Shown here: positions 26,526 through 51,041 of the stretch, one piece after another
Layout of the letters: every line of letters begins with the position of its first letter
Numbering within the stretch: the stretch's first letter is position 1
Assembly (NCBI GenBank): GCA_036924285.1
Contig: JAYKYS010000001.1
Span: 41,973,501-42,037,500, forward strand
DNA from: Asterella californica
Taxonomy: Eukaryota; Streptophyta; Marchantiopsida; Marchantiales; Aytoniaceae
Length of the DNA stretch: 64,000 nt
Direction: 5' to 3'
The notes under the pieces: generated by a model
Database searches by the model: none
Seen by the model: only the letters and a program-made list of their open reading frames with translations
What the model was told of the DNA's origin: nothing
Position numbers and translations under genes: made by a program

Positions 26526-26537
26526 AGAGGGGGTGGA
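26526..26537 (+). other. Polypurine tract of element A
   Basis: AGAGGGGGTGGA lies directly before the 3' LTR. This is the plus-strand priming position of LTR retrotransposons. Element B has nearly the same tract on the minus strand, before its LTR at 17060. Confidence 0.75.
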
Positions 26538-28401: not shown

Positions 28402-29940
28402 AACGTATCGAGATATCTCCCAATACCTAGCAAAATTCTCTCGTATAACTCTTCGACAAAAAGTTCGTTCATCCTTCCCATTTGTGAAACAATATAGAAC
28501 ACTACACCCATGTCATCTATGTCAACCATCATCTCTTCCTCCTCATTGTACCTCGCTCGCAAGAGCATATCAACCATCAAATTATCCTTTCTCGCAATGT
28601 GCTTGAACTCCGTATTAAACGATTTGATGTACTCGATCCACCTCAACATCGCTATGTCCGAGATCATGCAATTTGTGATCATCTTTAGCAATAGCAAATA
28701 GTTGAGTTTCAACCACCACAGACACACCAGTGAGGTACTCTTTCTCTACCTTCATGGCTGAAACAACTCCCCACAACTCCCTCTTGACTTGCGAATAAGC
28801 ACATTGACGAGCGCTTAGGACCTTAGCACCAAATTGTATTGTCATGTCCCACAGCCCATCCAATCGTAAGAAGATAAGTATCCATGATAAGGACTATCGG
28901 TGTCCTATCACACTTGTAATCCATCTTTTTTAGTATTGGTCAAAACTTGTGACTCTTCCTCAATAAATCATATGACGCCACATGTGCGTAGTGGGGAAGT
29001 CATACGAAACGATAAAACACGCATGTTTCCAAAAGATATTCATATCTCTGTTAAGGAGTTACATATCTCCTTCATCCTCCCTATCGCATTAATCTTGCTC
29101 AGATATGACTTTCGTCTGAATGATCTACAAAGATGTCTTACGACAACAACCTCCTTAACCTCGAATGTTGACTTCGCATTCGATAATGTGAGATAAAATT
29201 CTTCCAGTCGAGATAAGATCTTTTCACAATCTTTTATGTGATCGATGACGTACTTCCTGCACCCTCTCTAATTTAGTGCTTCATTTTTTTCATCCTCTGA
29301 AACCCTTCGATTGAAATATCATCCAAGAATGACATCATCTCGAGAATGAAGTCCCTTAAGACCATGTTCATCTCGTGCATCATATGCGTTATCGAGTTTG
29401 TAGCACCTTGCAGTAACGTACACATCCGAACCAACCTCAACAACATTCTTATCATCATCATGTTCTTACTCTCCTCAACCAACTTAATTGATCGTAACTT
29501 GAGTAGAGATCTCCATCAAACTCGTCCATGATCGATCTCATCCCTAGATTCTTTATCGTTACTACGTTCACCGGCTGCATGTCTTGGATGAATCGCAATG
29601 ATCAATTCTTCTTCGGCACTGTAAACCATCTGCTAGAATACGGCACGAACGATGGCTCCAATATCTTCATATGTATTTTCTTCTTGAGTAGCTCCACCAG
29701 TTTAGACAAGTGAGCCCGTGGTACTAGAATTGATATGAGGTTCCATGGCACATGCGGTACTATGAAGATAACCATTGGAGTCACTAAATACGAATCCACA
29801 CATCTCATCTCGTGTGATTCGAAGACAAATGCTTCCTCGTGCGTGAAAGCATCTCCTTGAAGCATACCATCTCTTCTAATCGACGAGACCCATCCGACCC
29901 AATCTTCAATTCTTCAAGAGTTTTCTCCGTGAACTTATGT
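28402..29940 (-). mobile_element. Element B, middle piece: RT and RNase H remnants
   Basis: On the minus strand, 29865-29602 reads as the start of reverse transcriptase (FESHEMRCVDSYLVTPMVIF, VPHVPWNL). The stretch 29482-29273 holds LLQGATNSITHMM and FLDDI. The stretch 28863-28402 reads as RNase H (SDIAMLRWIEYIKSFNTEF). Multiple stops and frameshifts make it a relic. It joins in sequence to 18411 on one side of element A and to 51150 on the other side of element C. Confidence 0.85.
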
Positions 29941-30231
29941 TGTCACGTCAGTTTGGTACCCCGGCTAGGTTGACCGAGTGCGAAGTGGCGCATCCCGGTA
30001 AGACCGTTAGTGCCGTTAGGGCGAGTTGGTGAGAGAGCCCACTAGGGATATACTTCGCAGGTAAGGCTTGGAGACCTTAGTTCTTCTAGTTGAGCCTTCA
30101 AGCTCCAGGCTATGGTGGATAGTCTAGTTGAGTGTAACCCGGATTCTCTTCGTGTTTAGAGTGGGTTTGGCTTGACCGTTTGTGAGTAATCTTTGTTGTA
30201 GTGTTGGAGATGGTAATTTCTCAATGCAGAT
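29941..30231 (+). repeat. Split direct repeat A1 of element C (291 bp)
   Basis: Starts TGTCACGTCAG at the insertion boundary and matches 50751-51041 end to end. Unlike the right copy, it is not followed by the 108-bp B repeat. The coding region's leader starts directly after it. Confidence 0.92.
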
Positions 30232-31776
30232 TACTCAAAGAACTGAGTGCATGTCGAGGCGGAGTTCAGTAAGAGCTCGATGATCTGAAATCTGAAATCG
30301 TCCGCTGGTATCTTCGGACGTTGTCGTTCGTGCTTGATTGTTTGGAGCTGTGATCGAGGTGTGTGGGCGCATACTACATTGCTGGTCGCAGATCGATTTG
30401 CTGTTGTTGGGGTCGAGTAGAGATTTCTGTCATGTGGAAGCGCTGCAAAAATTTTGTGGAATGTTCTTGAAGTGTCTTGTTGGAGCCAGATTGCGCGTTT
30501 GAGCATGACAGACTGAGTACTTGTCAATGTCAGACCAGAGTGGACTCTTTGGAAGCGCATTTGAGAGACGATTCTAGTGCATTAAGTTTCGTGGAGTTTG
30601 GCCAAGGATTGAAGAAGTTCTGGCATGTCGAAGTTCGCTGCCGTGACACCCGCAAGTGCAAAAAGGTTAGTTACGTCAGATTTTGGTGCAATTTCGTGTG
30701 GAAACTCGAGTTTAGGTGCGTGAGTGCGGAGAGAGGCTTCGAGGAGCATAGGTGCGTGAGTGCGGAGGCGTGAGAGCGGAGTGCGAGAGTGCGGAGGCGG
30801 AGCAGAGGCGGAGCCCGAGCCCGCGTCCGCCCCAAGCCAGCTTGCTGGCGTGCGTGAGAGAGGTATCCAAGCTTCAGTTGTGTGGGAAGAGTAAAACCAG
30901 CTGGTCACCCATCCCAACACTATTCCTGGACCTGGACTCCTAACTCTGTAGTCTTAGCTTTGGCTTTACCACTAGACCAATAGCTCTTGGTGTCCTACAA
31001 GGATGCATGCAAGTACTTATGGACTTGTATAAGGTAGTAGGAGACCTTCTCGCACGTCCCTAGAGGAGTGGTAGGACGACCTCATAGTATTAGGGGTAAG
31101 CTATAGTTGTGGTAGTGCTTGTCTATACCATAGAGACGTGTATAGAGGCAATTGGTGGCAGTTGTCTTGGGTGAGCTAGTAGAGCTACCACGTGGATGTT
31201 TTTGGAGCTACTAGAGGTGTAGACATCTAGTTAGTGACCTCAAGTGTCAGTTACGACAGTTGGTGACCATATATTGTGCATGTGGTCACCGACAGGAGAC
31301 GTCAGTCCGAGTGGGACTGGGTTTCTCTTTATGTGAATGTTTGAGTGTGGAGGGTTATCGTTTGGACTTCTTGTGGTTGGAACCCCTCCATATTCTGCTT
31401 CCTGTTTGTGCGCCGCGTTTGCTTGTGTTGGCGCTTGATTTCCGGAGTGAGTTCACTCCAGTGTGCTGTCGATAGGAGGCTGGAGTTGCGGACCAGTCAG
31501 ACTATCTTTGTCTCTCTCACGGTGCGGTTGGAGTGATCACCAATAGATCGTGAGAGGCTGCTTGTGGTGATGGCAGGTACAGGTTGCCCTTACCTTGACC
31601 GTCCTAGTAGGAGATAGGTGAGCTCAGTAGGAGCGGGGTTAGGCAAGTGGTGGTTACGGTGGTGACGGGAATTGCGACATTCTAGTTGAGGAGTGTGTTA
31701 GCGGGATTCTCTCATCACGGAGTTCTCGGGAGGTTCTGGTGGAGACTTCTCGAACAGTGGGTATACACAGAGTGGG
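30232..31776 (+). other. Leader of element C
   Basis: About 1.5 kb without a long open frame. It includes a GC-rich run of short imperfect repeats (GTGCGTGAGTGCGGAG and variants, about 30716-30830) and the antisense tRNA/5S-like composite at 30897-30985. No TGG-starting primer binding site follows A1 directly, so the priming mode is unclear. Confidence 0.6.
30897..30985 (-). repeat. Composite tRNA A-box / 5S rRNA-like segment, antisense to element C
   Basis: On the minus strand 30985-30962 reads as a tRNA 5' part with the A box TTGGTCTAGTGGTAAAGCC. Then 30952-30897 is 56 nt that align without gaps to the 3' half of plant 5S rRNA, including the strongly conserved GGGATGGGTGACC. The upstream half of 5S is replaced by the tRNA-like part. 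Composite tRNA-5S heads are known in some SINEs. It is not an intact 5S gene. Confidence 0.55.
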
Positions 31777-32760
31777 GTGAGGTACCAACTACCTACACCA
31801 TTGCCGTCGGTTGTTCCAGAGGACGAGTCAGATGCAGATAGTGCGTTTTTTGGTGGTGAGTCTAGTGTCGCCACACCGTTGTTGTGGGACATGGACGAGA
31901 TCTATGGGATCACGAAGGGACCTCGACGTTACTCGAGTACAGTTGGTACCATTGAGCTGGATGACTTCATCCAGGAGTTCGACAGTTGGTGCGATCTGCA
32001 GCAGATGCGGAACCCACAGCTGTTTACACCCTTCATGGCGTGGAAGAGTTTGTTTCAGCACTTGGAGGGACCGCCGATGGACGATTATCATGAGTTCAGG
32101 CGAGATTACAGTGTTGAGATCGAGTTGTGGAGACAACATTGGTCTCCCAACTACGTTTCTATCACTACTGACGCAGTTTCAGGAGGCGTAGCACCTGCGA
32201 GTTCGAGTGCCAGTAGCAATGATACAGCCATAGGTGGCGGAGTACCTACTACCAGCGGTGCGTTCACATGTAGTGGAGCAGGTGGTAGTGTGAGCGGGAT
32301 ACCACCAGGGTTTAACCATGTGGTTCAGTTCTTCCAATGTTTGAGGAAGAACTATTAGGGTGTGCGGACCGACAAGTTGAGGAGTCTGCAGGAGTTCCAG
32401 CGGAAGACTGGAGAGAGCCTACGCGAGACGTTTACTCGCATGAGGCGGTTGATCAGCGTTACCCAAGGGATGACGGAAGCACAAGCAGTCTAGTTCTGGT
32501 ATGGGATACTAGACCGGGAGCTGCGTAGGAGAGTTAGAGATGCTACTCTTCTTAGAGATACCGCTCCGACGTTGGCGGTTGTCTTTAGTCTGGCTGAGCG
32601 GATTGAGCTCAACATGGTGGAGGAGAGGGTGGTGGTTGCTGGGTTCAGCAAGGAGACACCACATGGAGCGATCACCTCTTCTCGAGGATCACAGGCTACG
32701 CAACAGCGTGGTGGTGGTGGTGGTGGTGGTGGTGGTAAGGATCGTGCGGAGCAGTCATGA
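31777..32760 (+). pseudogene. Element C gag (capsid part)
   Basis: One frame runs through the gag region. Its in-frame stops are TAG near 32356, TAG near 32491 (after TEAQAV, where Gln fits) and TGA at 32758. A retrotransposon gag core is recognisable around 32340-32560 (LQEFQRKTGESLRETFTRM). A (GGT)n microsatellite near 32710-32737 encodes a polyglycine run ahead of the zinc knuckles. The frame begins with GTG at 31777 in a Pro/Ser-rich region, so the true start may lie upstream. Confidence 0.75.
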
Positions 32761-34422
32761 TCTCAGGGAGGTGTTGGAGGATCTGGTGGACAGAAACCCA
32801 TGCCGTCCTTCTCTAGCCAGCAGCAAACGGGTCCTTGCTGGACGTGTGATGGTCCTCATCAGCAAAAGGACTGCCCACAGAGGAGAGGTGGTTATGAGAC
32901 GACAGGAACGTCTCAAGCAGCACCTAGACAATGTGAGCATTGCGGACGACCTGATCACAGTAGTGACCGTTGTTTTGATCTCCATCCCGAGTTGCGACAA
33001 GGGAAGGTTGATCGTGGACGAGGTGGAGGAGCTCAGGGAGGTCGTGATGGTCGAGCTGGAGGTAGAGGTCCAGCACCTGGGAGAGGACCGGTCGGTCCAC
33101 CGCCTGCTACGACGTCAGAAGCAGGTATGGCTGCTCAGATTGAGCAATTGGAGCAGAGGATAGCTAGTATGACTATGGCTCAGCGGAGATCAGGTGGAAC
33201 CGAGGCTTCCACGTCTTATGGAGGAGAAGGAGGGGACTTCGACTTCATGGCTGGTGTGGCGCAGATTGAAGCATCTGCGGTAGTGACTAGAGGTGCAGTA
33301 CGTGTCTCTAAGCCACGAGGTGCGTCAGTGGAGTTGGATCTACAACGCGGGGAGGCTGGTAGACAGGCCAGGCTTCCCCAGTCGTTCACGTTATCGGAGG
33401 CGTTGAGGACCACATCTATGGTTCCTAAACGGTCTACCGATGGTGCAGTAGAGTTGGAGGCATCGACATCCAGGAGTGGGTGTGATGTGAGTCCACCTTC
33501 GACGTCTGTGGATGCGACGTCAAATCCGATGTTGGGGGCGGCTACAGCAGTTTTGCGAGCCCCACTATTCTCAATCACTGATATGATGGCATTGGGAGTC
33601 AACTTGGCTCCAGTGTTCCAGTTGGTGGCCACGCTCAGTGAGAGCGAGGATGTAGTTACCTCTAGTGCTGAAGTAGTTCAGCGAGAGACGGTAGACGTGT
33701 CCATGGAGTCGAGGATCAGGACAGCTACCAATGGTACTTGGCAAGCGGCGGCTGCTAGGTTAGATGAGTTACCAGCTAGGCCGGCGATTGACCGTGCTAG
33801 TTTGGCACCAGGTGTGGTGTTGTTGGACAACAGAAGTGGTATCTTCTGTTCGATGGTACCTTCAGGGAAAGTGTATTGACCCCAGAAGGCCTTGTTAGAC
33901 TCTGGAGCCCAACCGTTGATGTTGGGAAAGACGGCGTGTATTGGTTTGGATCTAAAGAGGTCTGAGGTGGAGAGATGTCCATTCCAGTTGCAGACATCTC
34001 TAGGGGGATCAAGAGGTACGGCTCTACACATGACACGTGAGATGTTGACGGTGAGAGTTCGGCCAGATCATCCAACGGATGGCTCTATGGTGAGAATCAA
34101 GGTCATCGTTACAGCCGCAGAGTCTTATGATGTATTGGTTGGAGGTGCTGTGTTGTACCCTATGGGGTTCGTGATCGACTATTGGACCGAGACAACATCT
34201 TACAGACCAGGTTGGCAGTCCGGTGAGGGACGAGTGAGCCGCTTATCAGTGCGGTTCAGTGCTAGAGTTGGAACAACGGAGCCTACACCAGGGACGATGG
34301 CATCCGTTGCAGGTTCAGTTCGGTCATCACTTGGCCGAGCGAGTTGTTGGAGGACAATGTCCATGCGGAGGATACTCCGGTCTTTGAGGAGGTGGAGGAC
34401 ATGTCTAGCATGTCTACGTTAG
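32761..34422 (+). pseudogene. Element C nucleocapsid and aspartic protease
   Basis: Same frame as gag. Two zinc knuckles near 32836-32980 read CWTCDGPHQQKDC (one residue short of the usual spacing) and CEHCGRPDHSSDRC (canonical CX2CX4HX4C). An Arg/Gly-rich stretch follows. A TGA at 33877, where Trp fits, precedes the retropepsin motif LLDSGAQPLMLGKTAC at about 33893. The last part of the frame (after about 34280) turns into unlikely Arg/Ser-rich sequence. At the same place another frame reads EDTPVFEEVEDMSSM, so a frameshift lies near there, just before the methyltransferase. Confidence 0.8.
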
Positions 34423-34465
34423 TACCATCTGCCTTGGATGTTCCACTCTGGAGGCGAGTGGAGAG

Positions 34466-35047
34466 TTGCAGCAGTATGCTGATCAGCTGGTGCAGCAGGC
34501 TTGGAGTGAAGCCTTTGTACCACCAGTAGAGGAACAAAGGGTTGTTCCTGCTACTGGTCCTATGACCTTATCACCGTTGGATACGACTCTCATTGTGTGG
34601 CAGTATCCAGAGGAGGGTGTATGTGTGCTGGAGCTGTTTGGAGGGATCAGCACAGGTTTGGCTGCGGTATTGCAAGCAGGTATACAAGTACAGCGATACT
34701 TGTATGTGGAGAGAGATGAGATTGCGAGACGCATCTCATTGCGACATGTGGCACGTTTGGTGCAAAGATATCTTGAGTTGTTGCCCATATCAGCTGTTAG
34801 AGGATACCAGCAAGCATTACCGTCAGATATTTCGCTGCTGGGGGCGCAGGATCTTACGTTTGTGGGCACCATTCACTTGGTGATCGCCGGATGGCCATGT
34901 CAAGGTCACACGTGTGCTGGGAGAGGTCAGGGTTTACATGACCCACGATCTAGGATGTTCTGGGAGATGTTACGGATCTTACGACATCTCCAGATGCAAC
35001 AGATGGATTCTCCAGCGTACATCTTGGAGAACGTTGTCGGAGTGTGA
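34466..35047 (+). CDS. DNMT3-like DNA cytosine-5-methyltransferase domain carried by element C
   Basis: A 193-codon stop-free frame with the order of C5-methyltransferase motifs: motif I VLELFGGISTGLAAVLQAGI (S-adenosylmethionine site, residues 54-73); motif II YVERDE (80-85); motif IV VIAGWPCQGHTCAGRG with the catalytic Cys at residue 145 (34898-34900); then GLHDPRSRMFWEMLRIL; and motif VI LENV (187-190). The closest resemblance is to the DNMT3/DRM group (GIQVQRYLYVE and the segment after PCQ). After TGA at 35045 another frame continues plausibly (PGFWLWLFTQEVGFQV) until about 35115, where inserted DNA begins. The C-terminal target-recognition part and motifs VIII-X are therefore missing here. 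In a live element the enzyme would be made as part of the gag-pol polyprotein. C5-methyltransferases in retrotransposons have been reported from dinoflagellates and charophyte algae. Confidence 0.9.
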   Translation: MQQYADQLVQQAWSEAFVPPVEEQRVVPATGPMTLSPLDTTLIVWQYPEEGVCVLELFGGISTGLAAVLQAGIQVQRYLYVERDEIARRISLRHVARLVQRYLELLPISAVRGYQQALPSDISLLGAQDLTFVGTIHLVIAGWPCQGHTCAGRGQGLHDPRSRMFWEMLRILRHLQMQQMDSPAYILENVVGV

Positions 35048-35115
35048 TCCGTCTACCTAGGAAAGCGCCGGGCTTCTGGCTGTGGTTGTTTACTCAAGAG
35101 GTTGGCTTTCAGGTA

Positions 35116-36431
35116 ACAACAGGGCTATAAACACTCACACAGGTGTGTAAGATCTTGTAATATACTCAGAAAGCGAAATTCAGGTATAACTGGCAGTAAT
35201 AGGATCCGGCGGCGAACTTTGACACTCACGGAGAAGAAAACTATGAAGGTTTAGACTTCTAAACTTCCCCTACATGCAAATGAGGTACTACTGAACTCAC
35301 ACACGAAGTTTTAGCCTGAGATCAAATTCTGACACCGAGATGTTGACAGAAAAGTTCTGAGTAAGAAAATTGCGGCAATTTCTGGTACCCAGCTGGCTAT
35401 TTCAACCTAGAACAGAAGATTGGCTCGATCAAATTCAAATATTCTCACAGTATTTGAAGTCTACAGGGTGCTGAACATCCCTGTGAAGTTGGGACTCCTG
35501 AATGTACACAGAACTCCAGATCTCCTCCTCTGAAGTCGCTGCTCTAGATTAAGAGCTTTTCAGACCCCTCCAGCTTCAGCGGCCGCCCTGAATTACTCAG
35601 TCACTAAATCGATGCGAAACTTTTTGGGAAATCGTAGCCCTGCTGGCAGAGAACACAACCTTGAAGTTTTGAAGCAATTTCCTCAAATCTGCTGCAAGTG
35701 ACACTGAAAACCCTAAATCCAACAAAAGTGATTCAATTCTGGCACAATTCGAACTTCAATTGGTCATAACTTCATCTTTATTGACTCAAATCGATCAAAA
35801 ATTTCACTGGAAGTGCTTTGCATGACGAGCTCTACCCTCCTGTGCACTCAGATTTCGAAGTCCTTTCACCAAATGCTCGAACTCTCCTTTAGAGCTCTGT
35901 TTCTAAATTTAGAGTTAAACTAAAGACAAAAACAGACCAATGGGAGATCATAGCTCCACTTGGTTGTCCTTTAGTGCCCTAATCCACGTGGTAACTCAAC
36001 TTCACTCAAAGGCTACCACGTCAGCCCCTAAAGTGCCAGCGTAAATCTTAAACTTCACGCGAAGGCATGTAAAATAACACGTAACCCTAAAAGATAACTT
36101 AACCAATCTAGAAAGCATGCATGGGCGACAAGTAAGTACAACCCATGAGCTTAAACCTCTATCAGCATGGAAACCCTAAGTTATGTACTTTCACAACATA
36201 GATAAGCATGATATCAATTGCACAAGCGCAGGAGTGCTTGAACAAGATAGATAACATACTATCAACCTACTAAGACTCAAAATATATAACACAATAGTGT
36301 CAACACCGTATGCAAAGGTGTCAAACATATGTATAAAAGACTATAAGTAACATGAGCTAACTTCTAGAACTACTAAACTCAAGCGTCGGAGTAGAAGTCA
36401 AGCATGTAGCCGCCAAGTAGCGCGACATGAT
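35116..36431 (-). mobile_element. Diverged LTR-like remnant inside element C
   Basis: No coding frame. Stretches such as the run around 35750-35870 resemble, with many changes, the LTR of element D around 38680-38770 (both have ACTTCAA...CATAAC, then AAATCGA and GAGCTCT). The likeliest reading is an older LTR of a related family in the same orientation as D. Its borders with C (about 35115) and with the D duplication (36431) are inferred. Confidence 0.4.
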
Positions 36432-37013
36432 GTTCTGTCTTCCTTAAGTCAAGCGTTGTCCTCTCGGATGGAGACAATTGACAGAACCGTTTCTCAAACT
36501 CACGCAGCAACTCATTTGGCGTCATCTCATTCCCCGGACGCTGCTCTATCCACTCCAAGAACGTTCTCTTGGTTACTCTATCTGCATCATCATCAAAAAA
36601 TTCACTCTTCAACCTCTGCTCATACTCCTCCCAAGAACTCGTACGTGCATCCTTCAGCTTTGTCACTTGACTACGGATCTCAGGTATCACAGCCAACTCA
36701 AAACTAGAAATCATCTCTGTCTCAGGCACACGATTTACCTCCATCTCACAAATATACTCCCGAACATACTTCGTGATGTTCCTTCCATCGAACCTCCCCA
36801 ACTTCTTCACCACCGCTTGTAGAGCTCTTGTAGACTTCTGCTCTCCAACATCGCCTCCTTGTTGTTGTCTCAACAACATCGTCAATGCTCGAAGCAGATC
36901 GTCCGCTCCTCCTCCACTCGTCCCCATTGCTTCGGGAAGATTCATACTTGACGCTTCTCGGCAACAACTCACTCAACCACCTCAAAGCGTGCTCTCAGTG
37001 GAAGCACCAAATA
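36432..37013 (-). pseudogene. Duplicated 5' end of gag next to the left LTR of D
   Basis: Repeats the start of D gag (from 36958 leftward, SCCREASSMNLPEAMGTSGG) for about 178 codons. It then leaves the family sequence after LDLRKTE and ends in an unrelated tail at 36379. The break is at the same codon where element A carries its insertion. Confidence 0.85.
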
Positions 37014-39048
37014 TGTCGTAGCGAGAGCCTTTCCTTTGAGCAAGGGCGTACCTTCTAGCTGTGGTTAGCGATCGATACACAGCAGAGCGACTAGTATCTC
37101 GTAGATTTCTCTCTTAACTTCTTCGATAACTAAGCACTTTCTTTCTCTCAGTAAAGGGTCAAGATAACTACACGAAAATGTTGGATGATCATGGGCACGA
37201 CAAACGTGATATGTGATGACATGATCTCTCGGTAGTATTCCTCTCCGAAGTTTCTCACTACTAGGGCTTCGTACATGACTTTGGGTCGACAGATGTGTCT
37301 TATCTCGCACTGGGTGTTAAAGTTTACAGGAGGGAGCTGATTTAGATCCATCTTTCGTTAGATGAGAATAAAGACAGTGAGATCTCATTCTTGGCCGTAA
37401 GTGACAACAGGTAAGATCACAGGGACAGACGAGAGCATGACTTGCGCGGTAAAGTTATGCCCGAAGGATCCTATCAGAAACTGTTGAAAGTGAACTCGTT
37501 CCATATACATCAGTTTAATCGAGAAAGGGTTTCGAAAAGGGAATCTGGGCGGTAAGTAGAGTCCTTCGTCCATCTCTCACAACATGTGCACTCCAACTAC
37601 AAAGGTATATCGATCCATAAAACTCTGATTCAATCTTATAGGATCACCACGATCTCTCCACGAACAATCTCTTGGATTTTTCCCCAGGTCGAATGCCCCC
37701 ATACAGGTCACTCCCCTTTGCTTAAAAGTTTCGAACACAAAACAAGGATAGGTGCAAGCTCCCTAACCAAGCAACCCAAGCCTCACGGACCGATGAGGTG
37801 GCACACATGCACATCGCATGTTTGGTGCCGTCATACTCATCCACGTGTGGGTGTTCTGGGTGAAAGGTTCTAATGCATGCACCGTAACGTGTCCCAAAAA
37901 CCGGAGACTAGGCTAGACAGGTAGTCGACTCTACAAGTCAAGGATCGCACTTTGCCACGTTGAGTGCGAACCTAACAACCACATGACGTGGATACAACGT
38001 AGGTCGCTAAAGTCACATCTACGCCTAGAATACTCCCCAAAGCAATACAAATGTCGCACTGGATACTTTACAGCCAGCTGTCGCTAACAACTCGAGACCT
38101 AGAGTAGATATCGTTGCCGATACAACTCGGCAGAAAAACCAGCGAACTTTCACACATGATAGGTACAGATCTACAGCTCAGTCTCCTCTCAAACTTGCCA
38201 CGTAGGTAGGATACTAAAATCTCTACTTGCAGGTCAAATTTCAGGAAGATCTGACGGCTAGATCTCCTCCCACAATTAACACAAATCCACAGAAACTAAC
38301 ACGCACTTCCAATCTCAGATTCAGGACAGAAGCTTCTTCGACTAAATGAACCGTCCACTTCCACTCCAACTTCCTGTGCTATCAATTCAGAAGGTAAACT
38401 CACTACACAGGAAATTTGAGCCGATTTGACCGTTCTGATCGTCCTCCATAAATCTGCAAACTCGCTGCTTCAGATTGACAGCTTTCTGCACCCCGTCGTC
38501 TTCAAATCGCCATTGCGCTCAATCCGCAGAACATCCGGTGGTGAAATTTGTGGTCAGAGCTTCAGCAGCTGACAGACTACAAGCTCATGAAATCTGGTCT
38601 CAATCTGACGGTTCAATCACTCAAACCCCTTAATCTTACAATCGGAAGAGAAACTCTTGTACTCTCATCACTCTATGAACTTCAAATCGCCATAACGTAT
38701 GCCCTGGACCTCCAAATCGAGTGAAATTTGTGGTCAGATTGCTCCTCCCGTCGAGAGCTCTCCGCCCATGCCCTCTGATCTCCAAAATCCCTCGTCAAAG
38801 TGCCCCGAACCTCCCAGAGCGCACACTTAGGTAGATGACAAGTTATCTTCACTTTTGGGTGGACCAATGGGAAGTCAAAGGACTCAACCTTGTCCTTTTC
38901 TGCCCCATGGAGACCCCCAACAGATAATAGAGCATTCTAAGCTCATAAGAGCAATGTTTTAGATCCCATTACACCACAACTTCTACAATTGTGTGCAAAA
39001 CGTACTTATACGGATAATTTACATACTAACTGGTCCCACAACAGGACA
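37014..39048 (-). repeat. 3' LTR of element D (2035 bp)
   Basis: On the minus strand starts TGTCCTGTTGTGG and ends CTACGACA. Preceded by the polypurine tract GGTTTGGAGGGGGTGAA (plus 39049-39065). It equals 45091-47125 except for a few bases. Confidence 0.95.
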
Positions 39049-39093
39049 TTCACCCCCTCCAAACCTGCACATCCTCCGGTATGTGCCAACTTG

Positions 39094-42000
39094 TTATCCA
39101 TAGTCATCATCGTAGCCCTCATCAAGCTCTGAATTGTCAGGTTCATCATCCTCTTTTCTCGCATAAGGTCTAGAAAGATGAGAATCAGACTCGAGAAGTT
39201 CATCGAAATCAAGAAATCCTTCACGTCTTCGGAAAACCTTGACCCTTTTACCAGCAATGGGTAACTTCAAGAGTGTACCATCCAATTCTCGCAAACCATA
39301 TGTGGCGTTGTCGTGAACGACAACAACAACATAAGGACCAAACCAACGTCGTGCAAACTTCTTGATAGTGCTGTGTTGGTTATCCAAACTGTTGTCATAT
39401 ACTATGACCCAATCACCTTCTCGGATCGGCTTCTTCCGCAGTCGATGTGTCTTGTCGAACCGTTCCTTGTTCTTCAACCTCGCCTCCTTGAGTTTGACCA
39501 ATGCTTCTTCGAGGTCCTCCTCTCGTCGCTCAAGCTGCTGAATTCGTAATGTCAATAGTCCTTCCCTATCAGAACCATCCTCCCAAGGTAGACATACCCA
39601 AGTAGGAACGTCTCCTTCCGCTGGCATGATAGGTTTTTGACCGGTCATCAATTCTGTAGGCATGTAACCAGTGACAGTACTATGAGTAGTTCTATCAGCC
39701 CACAACGCAAAAGGAAGAAGTCTAGGTCAGTCCCCATGACGCCCCCTGCACGCTTTCACCAATGCTTGGATGATTGGTGGGTGCCCTCGTTCACTTTTCC
39801 CATTCGCTTCCGGGTTCATCGAAGTGGTCAACTTCAATCGTATTCCATATCTGTTGAAGAACTCACGTGCTTCATCTGCATTCAACTCTCCTCTATCTGC
39901 ACGGATTCTCCCCACGCTTTCATATCTAGAAACTATATCTTCTAATATGAATCGACAGACAGGTTCAGTAGCTTTGGTGCGTAGAACCCTCCCTTCTACA
40001 AAGTTAGATAGCTCTTCCCGAGCCAAAACTAAATGACGCATGCCTCAAATTCCTGGTGGCATGGCAACCAAATCCAAAACCCATTGGAAATGAATGGACA
40101 AGGGATATGTGGGTCTCAATCCATCCCTATACCGAATCTTGGATCGGAATTGACATTCAATGCATGACCCAACAAACTTTTCTACATCTCGATACAATCC
40201 TTTCCACCAATACCTCTCCTTGATCTTGGTAAAGGTCGCCCATGTACCTCGATGACCTGCCCATAAGGTATCATGAAATTGTTCGAGTACTTGTTTCTTG
40301 GTCTCTGCATCATCCACTACTCTCAAGGGTACTCCATCTCTCCTCTTTGGCCTCTTCCACAGATATCCATCTCGTAATAGATAGCCATATGCCTGATGTC
40401 GTATCTCCTTGAAGATTTTCTCCGTCCATCCTTCGTACTTCTGAAGAGTGCTTAGATAGCGTCCGATTTCCTTGAGCCTCCCACAGTAGAGTTCTTCCCT
40501 GAAAGGAAGAACACCATCCAAGCGACTCCGGTCCTCGCTTGATAGTTGTAGAACTTGCCCCTCCTCTGCATCATCTTCATCCATATCTTCCGCCTCCATA
40601 TCTTCTTCTTGAGAGTACCTAGCTCTAGACAACATGTCTGCCATCGAGTTCATCTTCCCTGCTATGTGCTTCAACTCTGGATTCAACGACCTAATGTAAG
40701 CTATCCAACGTAACATAGCAATATCAGGCGTTGTGCAGTTTGCTATCATTCCCAACAGAGGTAAGCAATCAGTTTCAAGTAGTACATGTGCTCCAATGAG
40801 ATACTCCTTCTCAGCTTTCATTGCAGTTACAACGCCCCATAGCTCTCGTTTGACTTGAGGGTACCTCCTTTGTCGATCCGTAAGTATGCGAGCACCAAAT
40901 CTTGTTGCAAACCTCTTTTCCTCACCATCATCCTGCCCTATTGCCCAACCTATAGCGATAGGACTAGTATCAACAGTAACGACTATGGGTCTACCACAAT
41001 CATAGCTCAATTGTCGTAGAACTGGTGGTGATTTCAACGCTTCTTTTAGTCGCACCATAGCGACCCTCTGCTCCTCACCCCAAGTGAACCTCCTTCGCTT
41101 CCTCAACAACTCATACAACGGTTCAGACATGTGACCAAAATGAGGAATCCACACTCGATAGAACAAACAAGCTCCCAAGAATCTCCTAACCTCTATGGTG
41201 TTGACACAATCTTTCATCCTCCCAATGGCATCAACCTTTGATGAGTTTGGACGTCGACCAAAAGCTCCACAAAGATGACCAACAACAACAATCTCTGGTA
41301 CTCCAAAGCTCGACTTCTCTGCTGAAAGAGTGAGATTTACCTCCTCAAGCTTTGTTAAGATCATCTCCACATCGTGAATATGATCAACCACAAACCTTCG
41401 ACATCCATCCTCAGTCAGCTTCTCATCTTTGTCTTCAACCGCACACCCTTTCATAAGAATATCATCTATGAAAGGTATGGTCTTCTCCGGAATGAATTCT
41501 CTCAAAATCCTATTCATTGCATTTTGCACATGAGCAACAGAGTTTGTCGCTCCTTGCGGTAATGTGCACATCCTTACAAGCCCAAGCGGAGTACGCATGG
41601 TGGTGAGATCTCTGCTCTCCATTGCCAACTGGAACTGATCATACCCAGAGTACAAATCTCCAATCGAGTAGATAGCACGACCGGCAAAAGCTTCTGCAAC
41701 TTCATCTACTATGGGTCCTGCTCCCATGTTTCGAATGGTCACCTTGTTAGCATGTTGCATGTCTTGGATGAACCTAAGAGCCCCTGACTTCTTAGGTACA
41801 GTAAACCACCGACTCGAGTAAGGTCCCATAGATGGCTCTAAAATACCCATGCGTATCTTCTCTTTCAACAATTCAACAAGCTTTGGCAACATAGCTCGTG
41901 GCACTGGTATAGGCTTCAAGTCCCAAGGCACATGTGGTACTGTGAAGATCACCATGGGTGCTACGACACTCGTATCTGCACATCCAATCTCTTCTGCACT

Positions 42001-42645
42001 GAAAGCAAAAGCCTTTCCATGCCTTCTCAACATCTCATGAAAACGCTTTCTCTCTTCCTCAGTGAGAAACTCACCCCCTCCAATCTGCAGTCGTTTGAGT
42101 GTCTCTTCTGTGAACTTGTGCCCTACTCCCTGTGAATCTCGCAGAACTGGTTCAGTCGATGCTCGTTCCACTTGCTTGTTAGAGTCTTCAGGTAGTTGAG
42201 TAGCCACCGGCTTCACTTTTCGTGCCACAGTCTTGTATTTTGTATGAACCTGCACTTCTCGATGTTTCATGGCTCTACTCCTTTCTAACTCCAACTCATG
42301 ATCTCCTTTCATCTGAAGCTGAACCTTGTAGTCATCCTCGACGAATCGTGTAATCTCCTCATGTAACTCACGTGAACGGATTACGACTAATCCATTAACC
42401 ATAGAATCGGTGCTTATGAACGACAAAACCTCCTCAAGAGTATCTTCAAAGCCCTCTTCTTCATACACCCCGTTAATGAACTCCTGATCTACCAAAACTC
42501 CTTGAGTTTTGAAGAGATCTTCCTGCTTCTTCACACATCGTCTTTGTACACTATCCATCTCTTCTACCACTCGAAATCTATTTACACAAGTTTCAGAAAA
42601 CTGAGCAAATCCACATTTAAACATCTCTTCTTCATCTTCTGGCAC
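39094..42645 (-). pseudogene. Element D pol: RT, RNase H, integrase
   Basis: An 866-codon frame (42645-40045) contains the spacer, reverse transcriptase (LRFIQDMQHANKVTIRNMG, TLPQGATNS, catalytic FIDD), RNase H (TVDTSPIAIGWAIGQ, ETDCLP) and the integrase zinc-binding region (HDTLWAGHRG, CIECQ). Two TGA codons, one near 40043 and one near 39725, interrupt the same frame; the second stands where element A has TGG. Between and after them lies the integrase core (IRADRGELNADEAREFF, GKSERGH) and the GPY-type end (FARRWFGPYVVVVVHDNATY). Only these two nonsense changes are obvious, matching its young LTRs. Confidence 0.92.
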
Positions 42646-42704
42646 TAGCGGAAGGCTCTTTCTCCTATCAACACTCCCATACTCCCGCCCTACAGGAGTG
42701 CTAA

Positions 42705-45049
42705 CTAAAAATCCGAAAACTCTTTGTCAGTCCTTAAGGGACTGTCCCTCAACTTCTCTCTGTTCCTTTCATGACCCGTACGTACAGTAAGAAACTGTAC
42801 CGCCCTTGTACCATCTTGACTTCTAATACGAGCATAATGAGACCCATCGTCCATTACTTCGTCTCCATCCTAGACGCAGTAATATATGGTTGACCTAGGA
42901 TCACAGGATACGCAGCTATACTCTGAACGAAAAAGTTTTGTTCTATCTCTACATCTCCTATCCGAGTCTTGACAGCTGGACAAGCACCAAAAAGTTCACC
43001 TCTTTGGTTGTTAGCAGCACGAAGAACCCATCCATGTCCTGTGTCGATTGGCCACTTCCCCTTCTCGTAAACATTTTTGGACATGATATTAATCTCCGAA
43101 CCGTGATCCACCAACGCCACTATAGCCTCTGACAAGTTACCCAGTCGGACCTTTGTCTCTGTGGTTGCACGAGCCCAATATGCTCGAGAATAGTGACTCT
43201 CATGCTGCTTCTCGTCGCCATATTCTGCAGCACAGTCTGAAACTCTTGCCTCTCTTCCTTTCGACGCCTGTAGTACATGCTTTTGGGCAAATACGCGACC
43301 TAACTCTTCATCTTCTTCCCCAGTGATGTCAGTATCCAATGCTTTCACCATCACTGTATCTGCAGTCATCTGCCTCTTTCTCTTGATCACATCTATGATC
43401 AACTCATGAAAGTCACGTTTGGCTATTCCCAAGGCTTCTCGCAAGGAAAATTCTATCTTTGCATCCAAAATTCTCTCTTCAAGAATCTCCTTCAAGTTGG
43501 TGGTGGTCTCGATATCTGACTGTAGTCTGTAGGTCGGTGCTTTACCTTTGCCCTTTGAAGAAGCTCCTTTGCCTTTCTCTCTCATCTCCGTGTCATAAAT
43601 AGGAACATCAACCATAGGTTCAGATGTAGATGCCCCTTGAGACGTCGAAGGGATATCAGAAGGTGATGCCTCTTGTTGCCCTCTCCTCTTCGTGGCTCTG
43701 GCTCTCCTTGTAGCCTCCTCCGGATCAACAACATCATCATCACGTCTCCTTTTCTCTTCCACAATCGCATCTTGCCAGCTTACATGCTTCTCTTGCACCA
43801 AGTAAGCCTTGACACACCCTGCCTCTACAGGATCATCCCATCCAGTAATGCGGCGAATTGCCTCCGCACCTCGCAACATTACTTCTCGTGGAACTTCAAC
43901 TACATCGCTCTTAACAGCTGCTACAACTGGTACATCTACTTCAATCGCAAATGTTTCTGGCTCTATTGTGCGTATCGCCGTAGCTATACCAATCTGACCT
44001 CTCACCAAACTCTTCATTCCTCCCTTACCAAAGTTGGTATTCAACGGCGCACCAGTTTGAGCGAGATGAATCTTTCCATCTCTAAAATTCACGACTCCGG
44101 TTCTGAGAGCTTCGGAAAACTCCTCACAATCTCGTCGTTGGTGTTCAGTACTGTCACACCAAATACATCTTCTAACAAAATTTCTGCTAGTTGAAGATGC
44201 ATTGGTATCACCAGGACTTCGACTATGCTTTAGCTCTGCCATCTCTATCCTTAACTCTCTCAGACCCTTGACCAACTCATCGATTGCAGAATCTTCAATC
44301 TTGCTATTGGCAGGCTTGGGCAATGGAGCTAAAGAGACATCAGACCTCAAGGTTGCAGCTCTACCTCTTCCACGTTTCTGCTTCGTGAGAATAGTAACAG
44401 CTTCCTCTACCTTTCTCCAGTCTGTGCTCACTCCTCCTTCTTCTCCCTTGTCTGCTAGCATCAAGAAAAGCTTATCCTCTAGATTTTCATCAGCAGCTTC
44501 TAGAAAAAGTTCTGTCTTCCTTAAGTCAAGCGTTGTCCTCTCGGATGGAGACAATTGACAGAACCGTTTCTCAAACTCACGCAGCAACTCATTTGGCGTC
44601 ATCTCATTCCCCGGACGCTGCTCTATCCACTCCAAGAACGTTCTCTTGGTTACTCTATCTGCATCATCATCAAAAAATTCACTCTTCAACCTCTGCTCAT
44701 ACTCCTCCCAAGAACTCGTACGTGCATCCTTCAGCTTTGTCACTTGACTACGGATCTCAGGTATCACAGCCAACTCAAAACTAGAAATCATCTCTGTCTC
44801 AGGCACACGATTTACCTCCATCTCACAAATATACTCCCGAACATACTTCGTGATGTTCCTTCCATCGAACCTCCCCAACTTCTTCACCACCGCTTGTAGA
44901 GCTCTTGTAGACTTCTGCTCTCCAACATCGCCTCCTTGTTGTTGTCTCAACAACATCGTCAATGCTCGAAGCAGATCGTCCGCTCCTCCTCCACTCGTCC
45001 CCATTGCTTCGGGAAGATTCATACTTGACGCTTCTCGGCAACAACTCAC
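42705..45049 (-). pseudogene. Element D gag-protease, one frameshift near its end
   Basis: A frame of 731 codons from 45049. It holds a capsid region, an intact zinc knuckle CIWCDSTEHQRRDC (CX2CX4HX4C), a Lys/Arg/Ser-rich linker and the protease motif VALVDHGSEINIMSKNVY. It stops at 42854 after SRMETK. Compared with element A one G has been lost there. In the shifted frame the homologous tail (DDGSHYARIRSQDG) continues to a TAG at 42705. Start chosen at the first Met after the LTR and primer site. Confidence 0.9.
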
Positions 45050-45067
45050 TCAACCACCTCAAAGCGT

Positions 45068-45086
45068 GCTCTCAGTGGAAGCACCA
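45068..45086 (-). other. Primer binding site of element D
   Basis: On the minus strand TGGTGCTTCCACTGAGAGC starts four bases after the LTR end. It has the expected TGG start and differs in its remainder from that of element A, so A and D may use different tRNA primers. The duplicated unit has the same site at 36991-37009. Confidence 0.6.
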
Positions 45087-45090
45087 AATA

Positions 45091-47125
45091 TGTCGTAGCG
45101 AGAGCCTTTCCTTTGAGCAAGGGCGTACCTTCTAGCTGTGGTTAGCGATCGATACACAGCAGAGCGACTAGTATCTCGTAGATTTCTCTCTTAACTTCCT
45201 CGATAACTAAGCACTTTCTTTCTCTCAGTAAAGGGTCAAGATAACTACACGAAAATGTTGGATGATCATGGGCACGACAAACGGGATATGTGATGACATG
45301 ATCTCTCGGTAGTATTCCTCTCCGAAGTTTCTCACTACTAGGGCTTCGTACATGGCTTTGGGTCGACAGATGTGTCTTATCTCGCACTGGGTGTTAAAGT
45401 TTACAGGAGGGAGCTGATTTAGATCCATCCTTCGTTAGATGAGAATAAAGACGGTGAGATCTCATTCTTGGCCGTAAGTGACAACAGGTAAGATCACACG
45501 GACAGGCGAGAGCATGACTTGCGCGGTAAAGTTATGCCCGAAGGATCCTATCAGAAACTGTTGAAAGTGAACTCGTTCCATATACATCAGTTTAATCGAG
45601 AAAGGGTTTCGAAAAGGGAATCTGGGCGGTAAGTAGAGTCCTTCGTCCATCTCTCACAACATGTGCACTCCAACTACAAAGGTATATCGATCCATAAAAC
45701 TCTGATTCAATCTTATAGGATCACCACGATCTCTCCACGAACAATCTCTTGGATTTTTCCCCAGGTCGAATGCCCCCATACAGGTCACTCCCCTTTGCTT
45801 AAAAGTTTCGAACACAAAACAAGGATAGGTGCAAGCTCCCTAACCAAGCAACCCAAGCCTCACGGACCGATGAGGTGGCACACATGCACATCGCATGTTT
45901 GGTGCCGTCATACTCATCCACGTGTGGGTGTTCTGGGTGAAAGGTTCTAATGCATGCACCGTAACATGTCCCAAAAACCGGAGACTAGGCTAGACAGGTA
46001 GTCGACTCTACAAGTCAAGGATCGCACTTTGCCACGTTGAGTGCGAACCTAACAACCACATGACGTGGATACAACGTAGGTCGCTAAAGTCACATCTACG
46101 CCTAGAATACTCCCCAAAGCAATACAAATGTCGCACTGGATACTTTACAGCCAGCTGTCGCTAACAACTCGAGACCTAGAGTAGATATCGTTGCCGATAC
46201 AACTCGGCAGAAAAACCAGCGAACTTTCACACATGATAGGTACAGATCTACAGCTCAGTCTCCTCTCAAACTTGCCACGTAGGTAGGATACTAAAATCTC
46301 TACTTGCAGGTCAAATTTCAGGAAGATCTGACGGCTAGATCTCCTCCCACAATTAACACAAATCCACAGAAACTAACACGCACTTCCAATCTCAGATTCA
46401 GGACAGAAGCTTCTTCGACTAAATGAACCGTCCACTTCCACTCCAACTTCCTGTGCTATCAATTCAGAAGGTAAACTCACTACACAGGAAATTTGAGCCG
46501 ATTTGACCGTTCTGATCGTCCTCCATAAATCTGCAAACTCGCTGCTTCAGATTGACAGCTTTCTGCACCCCGTCGTCTTCAAATCGCCATTGCGCTCAAT
46601 CCGCAGAACATCCGGTGGTGAAATTTGTGGTCAGAGCTTCAGCAGCTGACAGACTACAAGCTCATGAAATCTGGTCTCAATCTGACGGTTCAATCACTCA
46701 AACCCCTTAATCTTACAATCGGAAGAGAAACTCTTGTACTCTCATCACTCTATGAACTTCAAATCGCCATAACGTATGCCCTGGACCTCCAAATCGAGTG
46801 AAATTTGTGGTCAGATTGCTCCTCCCGTCGAGAGCTCTCCGCCCATGCCCTCTGATCTCCAAAATCCCTCGTCAAAGTGCCCCGAACCTCCCAGAGCGCA
46901 CACTTAGGTAGATGACAAGTTATCTTCACTTTTGGGTGGACCAATGGGAAGTCAAAGGACTCAACCTTGTCCTTTTCTGCCCCATGGAGACCCCCAACAG
47001 ATAATAGAGCATTCTAAGCTCATAAGAGCAATGTTTTAGATCCCATTACACCACAACTTCTACAATTGTGTGCAAAACGTACTTATACGGATAATTTACA
47101 TACTAACTGGTCCCACAACAGGACA
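45091..47125 (-). repeat. 5' LTR of element D (2035 bp)
   Basis: Matches 37014-39048 over the full length. Its outer end at 47125 borders the resumed coding region of element C. The short frames inside it are the same in both LTRs and have no recognisable product. Confidence 0.95.
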
Positions 47126-47392
47126 GCGTCGGACGCGATCGACGGATGTTACTGCTCGAGCACTCTTGAGCTCTTTGCCTACCGAGTCGATGGAGGCAAA
47201 GGCTGGGGGCGAGGCACGTGAGTTCGTCATCCTTGGACATCATGGGATGTCATAGGAGAGAGTGTGAAGCTTGCAGCTAGAACTGCAGAAGTTTTTCGCA
47301 CAGTAGCGGTGGAGGTTGTTGGTGGTGAGCAGAAGGAAACTGCTCCAGAGGCTGCAAGATAGCAGTCAACGACTTCGTCTTCTACCTCTAGC
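47126..47392 (+). other. Element C spacer between inserted D and RT
   Basis: Element C resumes here. Frames are broken, and I could not match the stretch to the missing C-terminal part of the methyltransferase. One frame reads RALLSSLPTESMEAKAGG before a TAG, like a linker ahead of the polymerase. Confidence 0.4.
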
Positions 47393-48837
47393 ATGGTGAT
47401 AGAGGATACTTGGGAGCCGGAGATCGGACCCAAGCTTATAGGAGAGGAGAGACAAAGAGTCCAAAGATTCCTGAAGAGTTACAGGAATTGTTTTGCCTTC
47501 AGTATGAAGGATTTGGGTACCTTGAAGGGACCTAGTATACGGATTGACTTGGCTAATGACACGCCAATCTTTTGACGTCCTTACATGTACAGTGACATGG
47601 AGAGAGCCTTGATCCAAAGTCGGACTCAAGACTTGTTGGAGGCTGGGTTGGTGGAGATGTCGCATGGAGAGTATGCATCTGCCACAGTTATGCCAGCCAA
47701 GAAAGATATGTATGGCAACTACACGGATAGACAGATGTGTGGGGACTACCGTCCTATCAATCGGCAGACGAAGTCTGATAAGTATGCTATGCTGACACCT
47801 GAGGAGATCTTTGATGCAGTGGGGCATGTGAAGGTCTTCAGTACTTTGGATCTTCGAGCATGGTATCATCAGTTGCCAGTGAGAGAAGAAGATAAGTCCA
47901 AGACAGCATTCTGAGGAATTGACTCTCACGGCAAGGATTGTTTCTATCAGTGGCGGTTCTTACCATTTGGGTTGAAGAATGCCCCTGCGAGTTCCAAAGG
48001 GTGATGGACAGAATCCTAGCAGGATTGGATTTTGTCAGATGTTATATTGACGACATCTTAGTCTATAGTGCTACAATGGAGGAGCACGAGAGACACTTAC
48101 GAGATGTGTTTGAGCGGTTGAGAGCTCATGGGTTAAAGTTACACCCTGAGAAGTGTAAGTTCTTCCAGGAGTTGGTAGAGTATCTGGGCCACACCATCTA
48201 TCCAGGTGGATTGGGTGTTCAACAGACGAAGATTGAGGCTATTGCACGTATCTCACGTCCCACAGATGTGAGTCGAGTTCGAGCATTTGTTGGTTTGGTG
48301 AACTTTTATCGTCGATACGTGAAGAGATTTAGTGCAATTGCGAAGCCGTTGACCAAGCTGATGAAGGTGGACCAGGAGTGGCAGTGAGAAGATGAGTAGG
48401 AGCGAGCTTTCAAAGAGCTCAAGGATAGGTTGACATCTGCTCCCATCTTGAGGAGACTCGTTAGGGGGCGTCCTTTCCAACTACACACCGATTGGAGTAT
48501 GTTGGGACTTCGAGCAGTGCTGACTCAGCATGATGATGAGAAAAGGAGTTCGTGGTGGCGTATGCCAGTCGCATGAGGTATAGTTCGTATGAGGGAGAGT
48601 GTTTGACGACAGTGTGGACTGTTGCACACTTTCGATGTTATCTGTTTGAGAACCCCTTTACTCTCATCATTGATCACCAGCCGCTCAAGTGGTTGATGGA
48701 GTTCGATAAGCTTACAGGGAAGCTTGCACGATGGACTCTGATCTTACAGGAGTATGACTTCCAGGTAGTACATAGACCTGGAGTTGCAAACCTAGATGCG
48801 GATGGGTTGAGTCGCAACCCATGCACGAGTCAGCAAG
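47393..48837 (+). pseudogene. Element C reverse transcriptase and RNase H
   Basis: The reading runs through several in-frame stops: after DTPIF near 47573, TGA after KTAF near 47912 (Trp expected), and TGA and TAG around 48386-48400. RT motifs seen are CGDYRPINRQT, VFSTLDLRAWYHQLPV, FLPFGLKNAPCEFQRVMD and the catalytic CYIDDILVYS (about 48043). They are followed by HPEKCKFF and LGHTI, the usual Ty3/gypsy order. RNase H follows from about 48480 (LHTDWS, YASRMRYSSYEGECL, IIDHQPLKWL) and ends at ANLDADGLSRNP near 48822. The canonical YIDD box distinguishes this lineage from A and D. Confidence 0.9.
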
Positions 48838-50290: not shown

Positions 50291-50327
50291 TGACCCAAGC
50301 TTAGCATTTGTACGCGCGGGCTTGAGG

Positions 50328-50468
50328 TGTATGTTGTGTGGGTCTGCTGGTGGAGCAGCCCGTATGTTGGTGTGTGATGGTTGTTCGAGAGGTTGGGACA
50401 TGTCATGTTCGACTCCACCTCTCAGTGTCGTTCCTACTGGACGGTGGATTTGTCCTCGATGTATATAG
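50328..50468 (+). CDS. PHD finger at the integrase C-terminus of element C
   Basis: The last 46 residues of the frame 49791-50468 read CMLCG, then MLVCDGCSRGWDMSC, then PTGRWICPRC. This gives Cys ligands at residues 180, 183, 195, 198, 206, 221 and 224, the PHD spacing, with Trp two residues before the last pair. The usual His ligand (residue 203) is Asp (GAC, 50397-50399). PHD fingers read histone H3 tails. A module at this place is the positional analogue of the chromodomain in chromoviruses and may steer integration to particular chromatin. The His to Asp change may be decay in this copy. Confidence 0.85.
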   Translation, partial: CMLCGSAGGAARMLVCDGCSRGWDMSCSTPPLSVVPTGRWICPRCI

Positions 50469-50629: not shown

Positions 50630-50642
50630 TAGGGGGACGATT
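50630..50642 (+). other. Polypurine-like tract before B1
   Basis: TTAGGGGGACGAT lies immediately before the B1 repeat, whereas the bases before A2 are not purine-rich. Plus-strand priming would thus start at B1, and not at the terminus seen in the integrated copy. Confidence 0.4.
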
Positions 50643-50748
50643 GTGATACACTTGTGTATGTGTATGACATCGTCCATGTGTTATGTGTATGTGTGGTGTA
50701 CCTCTGACAGCGATGTATGTTGTGTAGCGATGTGTATGCGCACGACAG
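50641..50748 (+). repeat. Split direct repeat B1 of element C (108 bp)
   Basis: From ATTGTGATACAC to GCGCACGACA. It matches 51042-51149 with about three differences. It is separated from A2 by GC only, giving a palindromic junction GACAGCTGTC. Confidence 0.92.
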
Positions 50749-50750
50749 CT

Positions 50751-51041
50751 GTCACGTCAGTTTGGTACCTCGGTTAGGTTGACCGAGTGCGAAGTGGCGC
50801 ATCCCGGTAAGGCCGTTAGTGCCGTTAGGACGAGTTGGTGGGAGAGCCCACTAGGGGTATACTTCGCAGGTAGGGCATGGAGGCCTTAGTTCTTCGAGTT
50901 GAGCCTTCAAGCTCCAGGCTATGGTGGATATTCTAGTTGAGTATAACCCGGATTCTCTTCGTGTTTAGAGTGGGTTTGGCTTGACCGTTTGTGAGTAATC
51001 TTTGTTGTAGTGTTGGAGATGGTAATTTCTCAATGCAGATT
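50751..51041 (+). repeat. Split direct repeat A2 of element C (291 bp)
   Basis: Second copy of A1 (29941-30231), about 4 percent different, directly followed by B2. Confidence 0.93.

Follow-up and report, generated by a model that had tools for sequence, protein, structure and literature searches.

A Gypsy-type retrotransposon family of Asterella californica with a DNMT3-type methyltransferase, a candidate leaky stop codon and a PHD finger on its integrase

The 64,000-nucleotide stretch of Asterella californica DNA analysed here (contig JAYKYS010000001.1, positions 41,973,501 to 42,037,500 of the forward strand; hereafter the window) contains a Gypsy-type retrotransposon, element C, at 29941-51149, flanked on both sides by the target duplication ATGT and carrying part of a DNMT3-type DNA methyltransferase. 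Element C itself is a decayed, dead copy: its frames are broken, half of the enzyme is gone, and a second retrotransposon is nested inside it. Comparison with other copies in the genome leads us to an explanation that we consider the best overall, and rather probable, namely that element C belongs to an abundant and recently active Gypsy family whose DNMT3-type enzyme is encoded before a leaky stop codon, whose integrase carries a PHD finger as its tail, and which would methylate its own DNA and target its own insertion.

In the window, the open reading frame (ORF) at 34409-35047 on the forward strand, 212 amino acids long, matches the Pfam DNA_methylase profile (E = 1.2e-8, 35.2 bits, cut-off 22). 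Its motifs are ELFGG (motif I, 34631-34645), PCQ with the cysteine (motif IV, 34895-34903) and ENV (motif VI, 35027-35035), in agreement with the first-pass annotation of this DNA, which had described a C5-methyltransferase domain with these three motifs in order and the catalytic cysteine intact. That annotation had placed the domain at 34466-35115 and between protease and reverse transcriptase (RT). The methyltransferase is indeed there, but the family profile match begins only at about 34553, similarity to the other copies runs no further than 35035, and what is present is the first half of the enzyme; the 543 bp encoding motifs VIII-X are missing. Likewise, the protease does lie upstream, but the RT follows only after a 12-kb interruption (35036-47125). 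The first part of this interruption, 35036-36431, has no match elsewhere in the window and only short, weak matches in the three family copies compared. The reading frame of element C is disrupted at several places, and its protease region has no Pfam match; we identify it from the LDSGAQP motif and from its place in relatives, where Asp_protease_2 scores 26.3 bits in P0161 (cut-off 24.3) and 23.6 bits, just below the cut-off, in P0138. The methyltransferase fragment matches 133 proteins at E<=1e-3, the best among the matches listed having 76% identity over 86% of the fragment, and is therefore not a chance resemblance, which is also ruled out by the Pfam match, by the copies with the same order and by 608 exact probe matches in the genome.

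The first-pass annotation had proposed that other genomic copies be collected. We chose 20 family copies for their long open frames (at least 1171 amino acids) among the 123 methyltransferase Pfam matches listed for the 516.7-Mb genome; the sample is therefore biased towards intact copies. All 20 have the enzyme after Gag and protease. The first frame (ORF1) spans 1171 to 1381 amino acids in every copy and contains one or more zinc knuckles (two in 18 copies), the protease motif LDSGA and the methyltransferase. By pattern, motifs I and VI are present in 20/20 copies, motifs IV and VIII in 19/20 each, and motif X in the same frame in 18/20; wherever matched, the order is I-IV-VI-VIII-X, unpermuted, unlike that of DRM. 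The second frame (ORF2) is in phase with the first after a single stop in 17/20 copies and runs uninterrupted over about 1041 amino acids in 12. In copy L017, ORF2 matches the Pfam profiles RVT_1 (121-279), RT_RNaseH (370-471), Integrase_H2C2 (619-673) and rve (692-785), as well as PHD (E = 6.8e-11). The sequences show the polyprotein order of the family to be Gag, zinc knuckles, protease and DNMT3-type methyltransferase, then a UAG codon, then RT, RNase H, integrase and PHD finger.

A 26-mer taken from the methyltransferase accounts for the 608 exact genomic occurrences, and its reversed control has none. The window protein fragment gave 3891 first-pass candidates in the genome; the best 150 were scored, all with at least 91% identity, and an open frame of at least 1360 amino acids surrounds 41 of these. 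On contig C1, which includes the window, the exact methyltransferase probe lies at most 1.4 kb upstream of 33 of the 86 junctions between ORF1 and ORF2, mostly at 1161 bases, and 37 of the 86 are paired with a methyltransferase once the listed protein or Pfam matches are added; an exact junction lies downstream of 32 of the 54 probe sites. Eight C1 junctions that have no exact probe were examined, and methyltransferase sequence stands beside the stop in all eight; three have an essentially whole domain, in one case with an insert where it begins, and in five the domain breaks off or is interrupted internally. No copy lacking the methyltransferase was found among the 20 long-frame copies or these eight junctions, the other unpaired junctions being outside this check. 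We note that a second open frame of 214 amino acids overlaps the gag part of ORF1 in seven of the 20 copies (L011, L017, L020, L021, L022, L023 and L028, at about 2771-3415 in element orientation).

The family is large and, since the terminal repeats A1 and A2 (293 bp) are identical in 6 of the 15 copies measured, recently active; the other nine copies show 1 to 6 differences, and the remaining five of the 20 have no usable anchors. Purifying selection acts on the methyltransferase domain, for which the pooled Ka/Ks is 0.22 (190 pairs), with a median of 0.15 over the 42 pairs with Ks>0.1. The other pooled values are, over 190 pairs each, protease 0.16, gag 0.32 and the linker that precedes the enzyme 0.46, and, over 66 pairs each, RT-RNase H 0.10, integrase 0.13 and PHD finger 0.09; the short tail behind the enzyme has 1.7 (136 pairs, with very low Ks). 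Compared with three young copies, element C has changed from CpG to TpG or CpA at 0.114-0.123 per CpG, against 0.057-0.066 in the reverse direction and 0.051-0.055 for other C-to-T changes (C or G site); compared with the more distant copy L025, there is no CpG direction (0.171, and 0.178 reversed). Such CpG decay is as expected for methylated copies and gives weak support to their methylation, but it says nothing on which enzyme methylates them.

The description of the element as a retrotransposon carrying a DNMT3-like methyltransferase is borne out: the element is of Gypsy type, and its enzyme is nearest DNMT3 by profile and by fold, the fold having been compared with solved structures only. 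The structure model used has a pLDDT of 88.6, obtained from an improved alignment (an earlier model had 43). In a tree of 37 sequences, 31 family domains split at 100% from an outgroup of six (a partial DNMT3A, the host DNMT3-like gene L001, the host DRM-like gene L002 and three phage enzymes, with no DNMT1 or CMT). For some of the 31 no neighbouring retrotransposon domain was seen, P0003 and P0018 being short proteins. This grouping, with its small outgroup, favours a single capture with a later change of position in the polyprotein. A recent capture from this host is ruled out because L001 and L002 are both far from the element enzyme. Both host genes are named from their sequences; L001 consists of two separate frames, is interrupted and has PCQ, and L002 has permuted motifs.

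The source of the captured enzyme is less clear. On the family profile, one Croceibacter phage methyltransferase scores 76 bits, a partial DNMT3A chain 69 and the host DNMT3-like gene 52; as a phage enzyme scores as high as partial DNMT3A, the scores do not prove that the element enzyme descends from DNMT3 and not from a phage or bacterial methyltransferase, and this counts against the explanation that we favour. The element enzyme has PCQ, which bacterial enzymes also have, although L001 has it too. A scan of IMG/VR returned 27 loci with distant methyltransferases (at most 46% identity), none of them close to the element enzyme. We consider it unlikely that the enzyme merely looks like DNMT3 and was taken from a phage, a bacterium or a giant virus; such an origin would be compatible with any of the functions proposed below.

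ORF1 and ORF2 meet at the sequence AGA-TAG-CAG-TCA-ACG in 20/20 copies. Genome-wide, there are 821 junctions with an exact match to the 23 flanking bases, whatever codon stands at the stop position, and the codon is TAG in 800 of them; among the 100 junctions listed, there are 95 TAG, 4 TAA and 1 AAG. The junction, conserved across copies, matches the UAG-CAR-YYA consensus described for type I read-through in tobamoviruses (PMC3542737), with the same UAG and CARYYA placed here between Gag-protease-DNMT and RT-integrase as a candidate site. The in-frame UAG after the enzyme thus looks leaky. In the two 60-nt intervals that flank the stop (-60 to +60), third-position diversity is 0 and 0.005; most other intervals have 0.015 to 0.145, and one has 0.010. 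Over roughly the final 70 codons of ORF1, Ks is 0.015, compared with 0.075 for the enzyme. The RNA around and after the stop is predicted to fold more stably than shuffled sequence in the one copy analysed (L017, 6060-6200; z -3.1). The Marchantia proteins P0123, P0128 and P0129 stop at an apparently corresponding place, in P0123 97 residues beyond motif X.

The solved structures nearest to the PHD finger of the element are those of CHD4, MLL3 (KMT2C), ubi-d4 (DPF2), PHF12 and KDM5B. Several of these PHD fingers read histone H3 with unmodified K4. Gypsy chromoviruses likewise have a chromatin-reading domain at the integrase C-terminus; theirs is a chromodomain, whereas the family of element C has a PHD finger instead and, in addition, the methyltransferase.

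The methyltransferase domain is also carried by polyproteins of Marchantia polymorpha, by proteins of Calypogeia fissa, Sphagnum fallax and Closterium sp. NIES-53, and by many unnamed proteins, the nearest named relatives being liverwort proteins. The order protease-methyltransferase recurs in Marchantia. Two polyprotein orders are found among the relatives: protease-DNMT-RT-RNase H-integrase, with a PHD finger in P0161, and RT-RNase H-DNMT-integrase-PHD, in P0163-P0165. In the RT tree, the outgroup, formed by the two other Gypsy elements of the window, is weakly attached (support 46 and 36 at the nearest branches), and the root is weakly placed. Beyond the PHD finger, P0163, P0164 and P0165 have about 315 to 345 more residues with DPW/DPC and then PP motifs, perhaps a second methyltransferase-like fold. 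Metagenome proteins (for example P0004, P0005, P0006, P0011 and P0021) share sequence around the methyltransferase with P0142 of Sphagnum fallax, suggesting abundant copies in peat moss.

The two ends of the element are not the same long terminal repeat (LTR), and we therefore rejected a plain LTR structure. The left end is repeat A only (293 bp) and the right end is B1-GC-A2-B2, that is, split direct repeats A1...B1-A2-B2; 14 of the 15 copies with both ends readable have this form, and L016 has B1 only, without A2-B2. Target duplications of 4 bp are exact in 12 of the 15 readable copies and have a one-base mismatch in three (5/20 are unreadable). The dinucleotide GC that separates B1 from A2 resembles what a circle formed from unprocessed ends would have at its junction. 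None of four typical tRNA primer-site patterns was found in three copies. The family shares the order RT-RNase H-DDE integrase and a short target-site duplication with Ty3/Gypsy LTR-type elements, but lacks their identical long repeat at each end. It shares the arrangement A1-ORFs-B1-A2-B2 with DIRS/PAT elements, but these use a tyrosine recombinase, whereas copy L017 has an rve DDE integrase, and the matches listed for its two frames include no phage-integrase domain.

Retrotransposon-borne methyltransferases were published in 2018 for algae and dinoflagellates (PMC5890265), as the first-pass annotation had mentioned. The closest described system is KnitGypsy-Dnmt3 of Klebsormidium nitens, which has in common with the present family a Gypsy polyprotein with an unrearranged DNMT3-type domain under purifying selection and repeats arranged as in DIRS elements (PMC5890265, Fig. 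4 legend). We liken the two by the published description only, since no K. nitens protein is named among the matches listed in our protein searches. The parts of that paper available to us do not mention a UAG-CARYYA stop with the enzyme on the Gag side or a PHD finger on the integrase; the family described here has the 608 exact probe matches in its genome. SymbioDIRS-Dnmt3 of Symbiodinium is likewise a retrotransposon with split direct repeats whose polyprotein includes a DNMT3-type domain, but it uses a tyrosine recombinase, whereas the present element has a DDE integrase and makes 4-bp duplications; isolated SymbioDIRS-Dnmt3 domains methylated CG in yeast (PMC5890265). A 2025 paper (PMC12344493) refers to DNMT3 embedded in retrotransposons ('LTR Copia and DIRS') and gives the 2018 work on streptophytes and dinoflagellates as its source. 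In the titles and abstract openings surveyed, the 2018 figures and supplement being outside the survey, we found no methyltransferase-bearing retrotransposons of liverworts or mosses, and no leaky stop or PHD finger in such elements. The concept has been known since 2018 but has rarely been described; in no surveyed paper did we see its occurrence in land plants, the leaky stop or the PHD finger.

An element that bears the kind of enzyme by which it is usually silenced ranks among the odder transposon findings, and the 2018 paper leaves the role of the enzyme for the element open (PMC5890265). The interpretation in the first-pass annotation, that the element may mark its own DNA or hide it as host-like heterochromatin, is partly supported. 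The leaky stop and the PHD finger provide testable parts of a mechanism, from which we infer a benefit to the element. Because the enzyme precedes the leaky stop, it would be made in Gag-like amounts and packaged, and RT, integrase and PHD finger would be made by read-through only. The packaged enzyme could then methylate, probably at CG, the new double-stranded cDNA before integration, so that the copy would arrive methylated. The PHD finger may read the H3 tail, probably with K4 unmodified, and so steer the integrase towards transcriptionally quiet chromatin. The element would benefit from a copy that is not recognised as foreign DNA, or one sited where it does little harm and meets no counter-selection. 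We suggest, as a tentative and more specific possibility, that the packaged de novo methyltransferase and the PHD integrase form a writer-reader pair, with DNA methylated in the particle and inserted where active H3K4 marks are absent, so that the element would hide in heterochromatin by itself and not by way of the host.

Several observations weigh against self-methylation from a packaged enzyme. Other intervals near the stop are also low in third-position diversity (0.010 to 0.020 in several), and the constraint at the stop is therefore suggestive only. The Marchantia gene models P0125, P0131, P0132, P0135 and P0137 continue from the enzyme into RT sequence, and the relatives P0160 and P0161 have an unbroken frame through DNMT and RT with no UAG-CARYYA stop; the stop is thus not universal, or has been modelled away. 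In P0163-P0165, the enzyme lies between RNase H and integrase, a position that would not give Gag-like amounts. The two other Gypsy elements of the window have near-identical repeats and no methyltransferase match in the frames scanned, which argues that the enzyme is not needed for retrotransposition generally. Family copies show no CpG depletion relative to the rest of the window. Finally, the Gypsy-borne domain of Klebsormidium gave no methylation in yeast, a result that its authors considered inconclusive (PMC5890265).

The enzyme could instead restrain the element, self-methylation quickly silencing new copies so that the host survives, a self-limiting strategy that is among the options named by the 2018 authors (PMC5890265). 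The coexistence of many closely similar copies in the genome fits this alternative, as does the CpG decay of element C relative to other C-to-T change, which is expected if copies are methylated; the missing CpG direction against L025 does not. As its sequence predictions are the same as those of the explanation we favour, they do not separate the two, and we regard self-restraint as possible but improbable. Less probable still is that the enzyme methylates RNA, for example the tRNA primer or the element RNA, and so aids packaging or priming. Gag binds RNA, and the enzyme would be produced with Gag; the failure to find the four primer-site patterns in three copies is also in line with this role, which the 2018 authors raised for enzymes borne by long interspersed nuclear elements (PMC5890265). 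However, profile and fold place the enzyme nearest DNMT3, and DNMT2, the tRNA enzyme, matches with an E of 1e-3, behind DNMT3. The idea that a lone host methyltransferase gene fragment was inserted by chance into this one copy, which the truncated domain of element C, out of frame with its neighbours, might suggest, can be dismissed: it is refuted by the other genomic copies, 20/20 having the domain at the same place (18 with motif X in the same open frame), by the 608 exact probe matches and the methyltransferase sequence flanking 8/8 of the probe-less junctions examined, by the same protease-methyltransferase order in Marchantia, and by the interrupted and distant state of the host gene L001.

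Since the sequenced Marchantia polymorpha genome has relatives with the order protease-methyltransferase, the role of the enzyme can be addressed in a laboratory plant. A. californica has hundreds of copies, from apparently very recent insertions to old ones, so that their methylation can be related to their age. The features of element C are collected in the table.

Table. Parts of element C and of the sequences inserted into it, in window coordinates
Feature	Position	Strand	Basis or remark
Target-site duplication ATGT, left	29937..29940		same 4 bp at 51150-51153
A1, left terminal repeat, begins TGTCACG	29941..30233	+	12/293 bases differ from A2
Gag region, broken frames	31702..33163 (approximate)	+	two zinc knuckles at about 32836-32874 and 32932-32973, by eye; same order in copies
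Retroviral-type aspartic protease (LDSGAQP)	33880..34422	+	motif and position in relatives
DNMT3-type methyltransferase, N-terminal half (motifs I, IV, VI)	34553..35035	+	Pfam profile, motifs, homology to other copies
1.4-kb stretch of unexplained origin, in place of methyltransferase motifs VIII-X	35036..36431		comparison with copies
Nested Gypsy element, direct repeats 36432-39048 and 44509-47125 (2.6 kb)	36432..47125	-	repeats, domain matches
Candidate leaky-stop site TAG-CAG-TCA, junction of ORF1 (Gag-PR-DNMT) and ORF2 (RT-RH-IN-PHD); PR, protease; RH, RNase H; IN, integrase	47360..47368	+	comparison with copies
ORF2 start: reverse transcriptase, broken frames	47363..48200 (end approximate)	+	Pfam RVT_1 in intact ORF2 of copy L017
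RNase H and remainder of the same open frame	48540..49136	+	RT_RNaseH E 2.4e-17
Integrase, H2C2 zinc finger and DDE core	49150..50320 (approximate)	+	by eye; copy L017 Integrase_H2C2 1e-16, rve 2e-14
PHD finger, integrase C-terminus	50328..50462	+	PF00628 E 1.1e-8; copy L017 6.8e-11
B1 repeat, followed by GC and then A2	50640..50747	+	repeat comparison
A2 repeat	50750..51042	+	repeat comparison with A1
B2, right terminal repeat, ends GCACGACA; ATGT next at 51150-51153	51042..51149	+	repeat comparison

The direct repeats of the nested element on the reverse strand are 99.7% identical and include the start of its own gag frame; there is no target duplication at its flanks (ACATGA before, GCGTC after). 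The remaining Gypsy element of the window, at 18417-28402, has no PHD finger and no methyltransferase in the four frames scanned. It has a DUF4100-like region, and its 1.87-kb direct repeats (99.4% identical) hold a 177-bp unit duplicated at 157-bp spacing.
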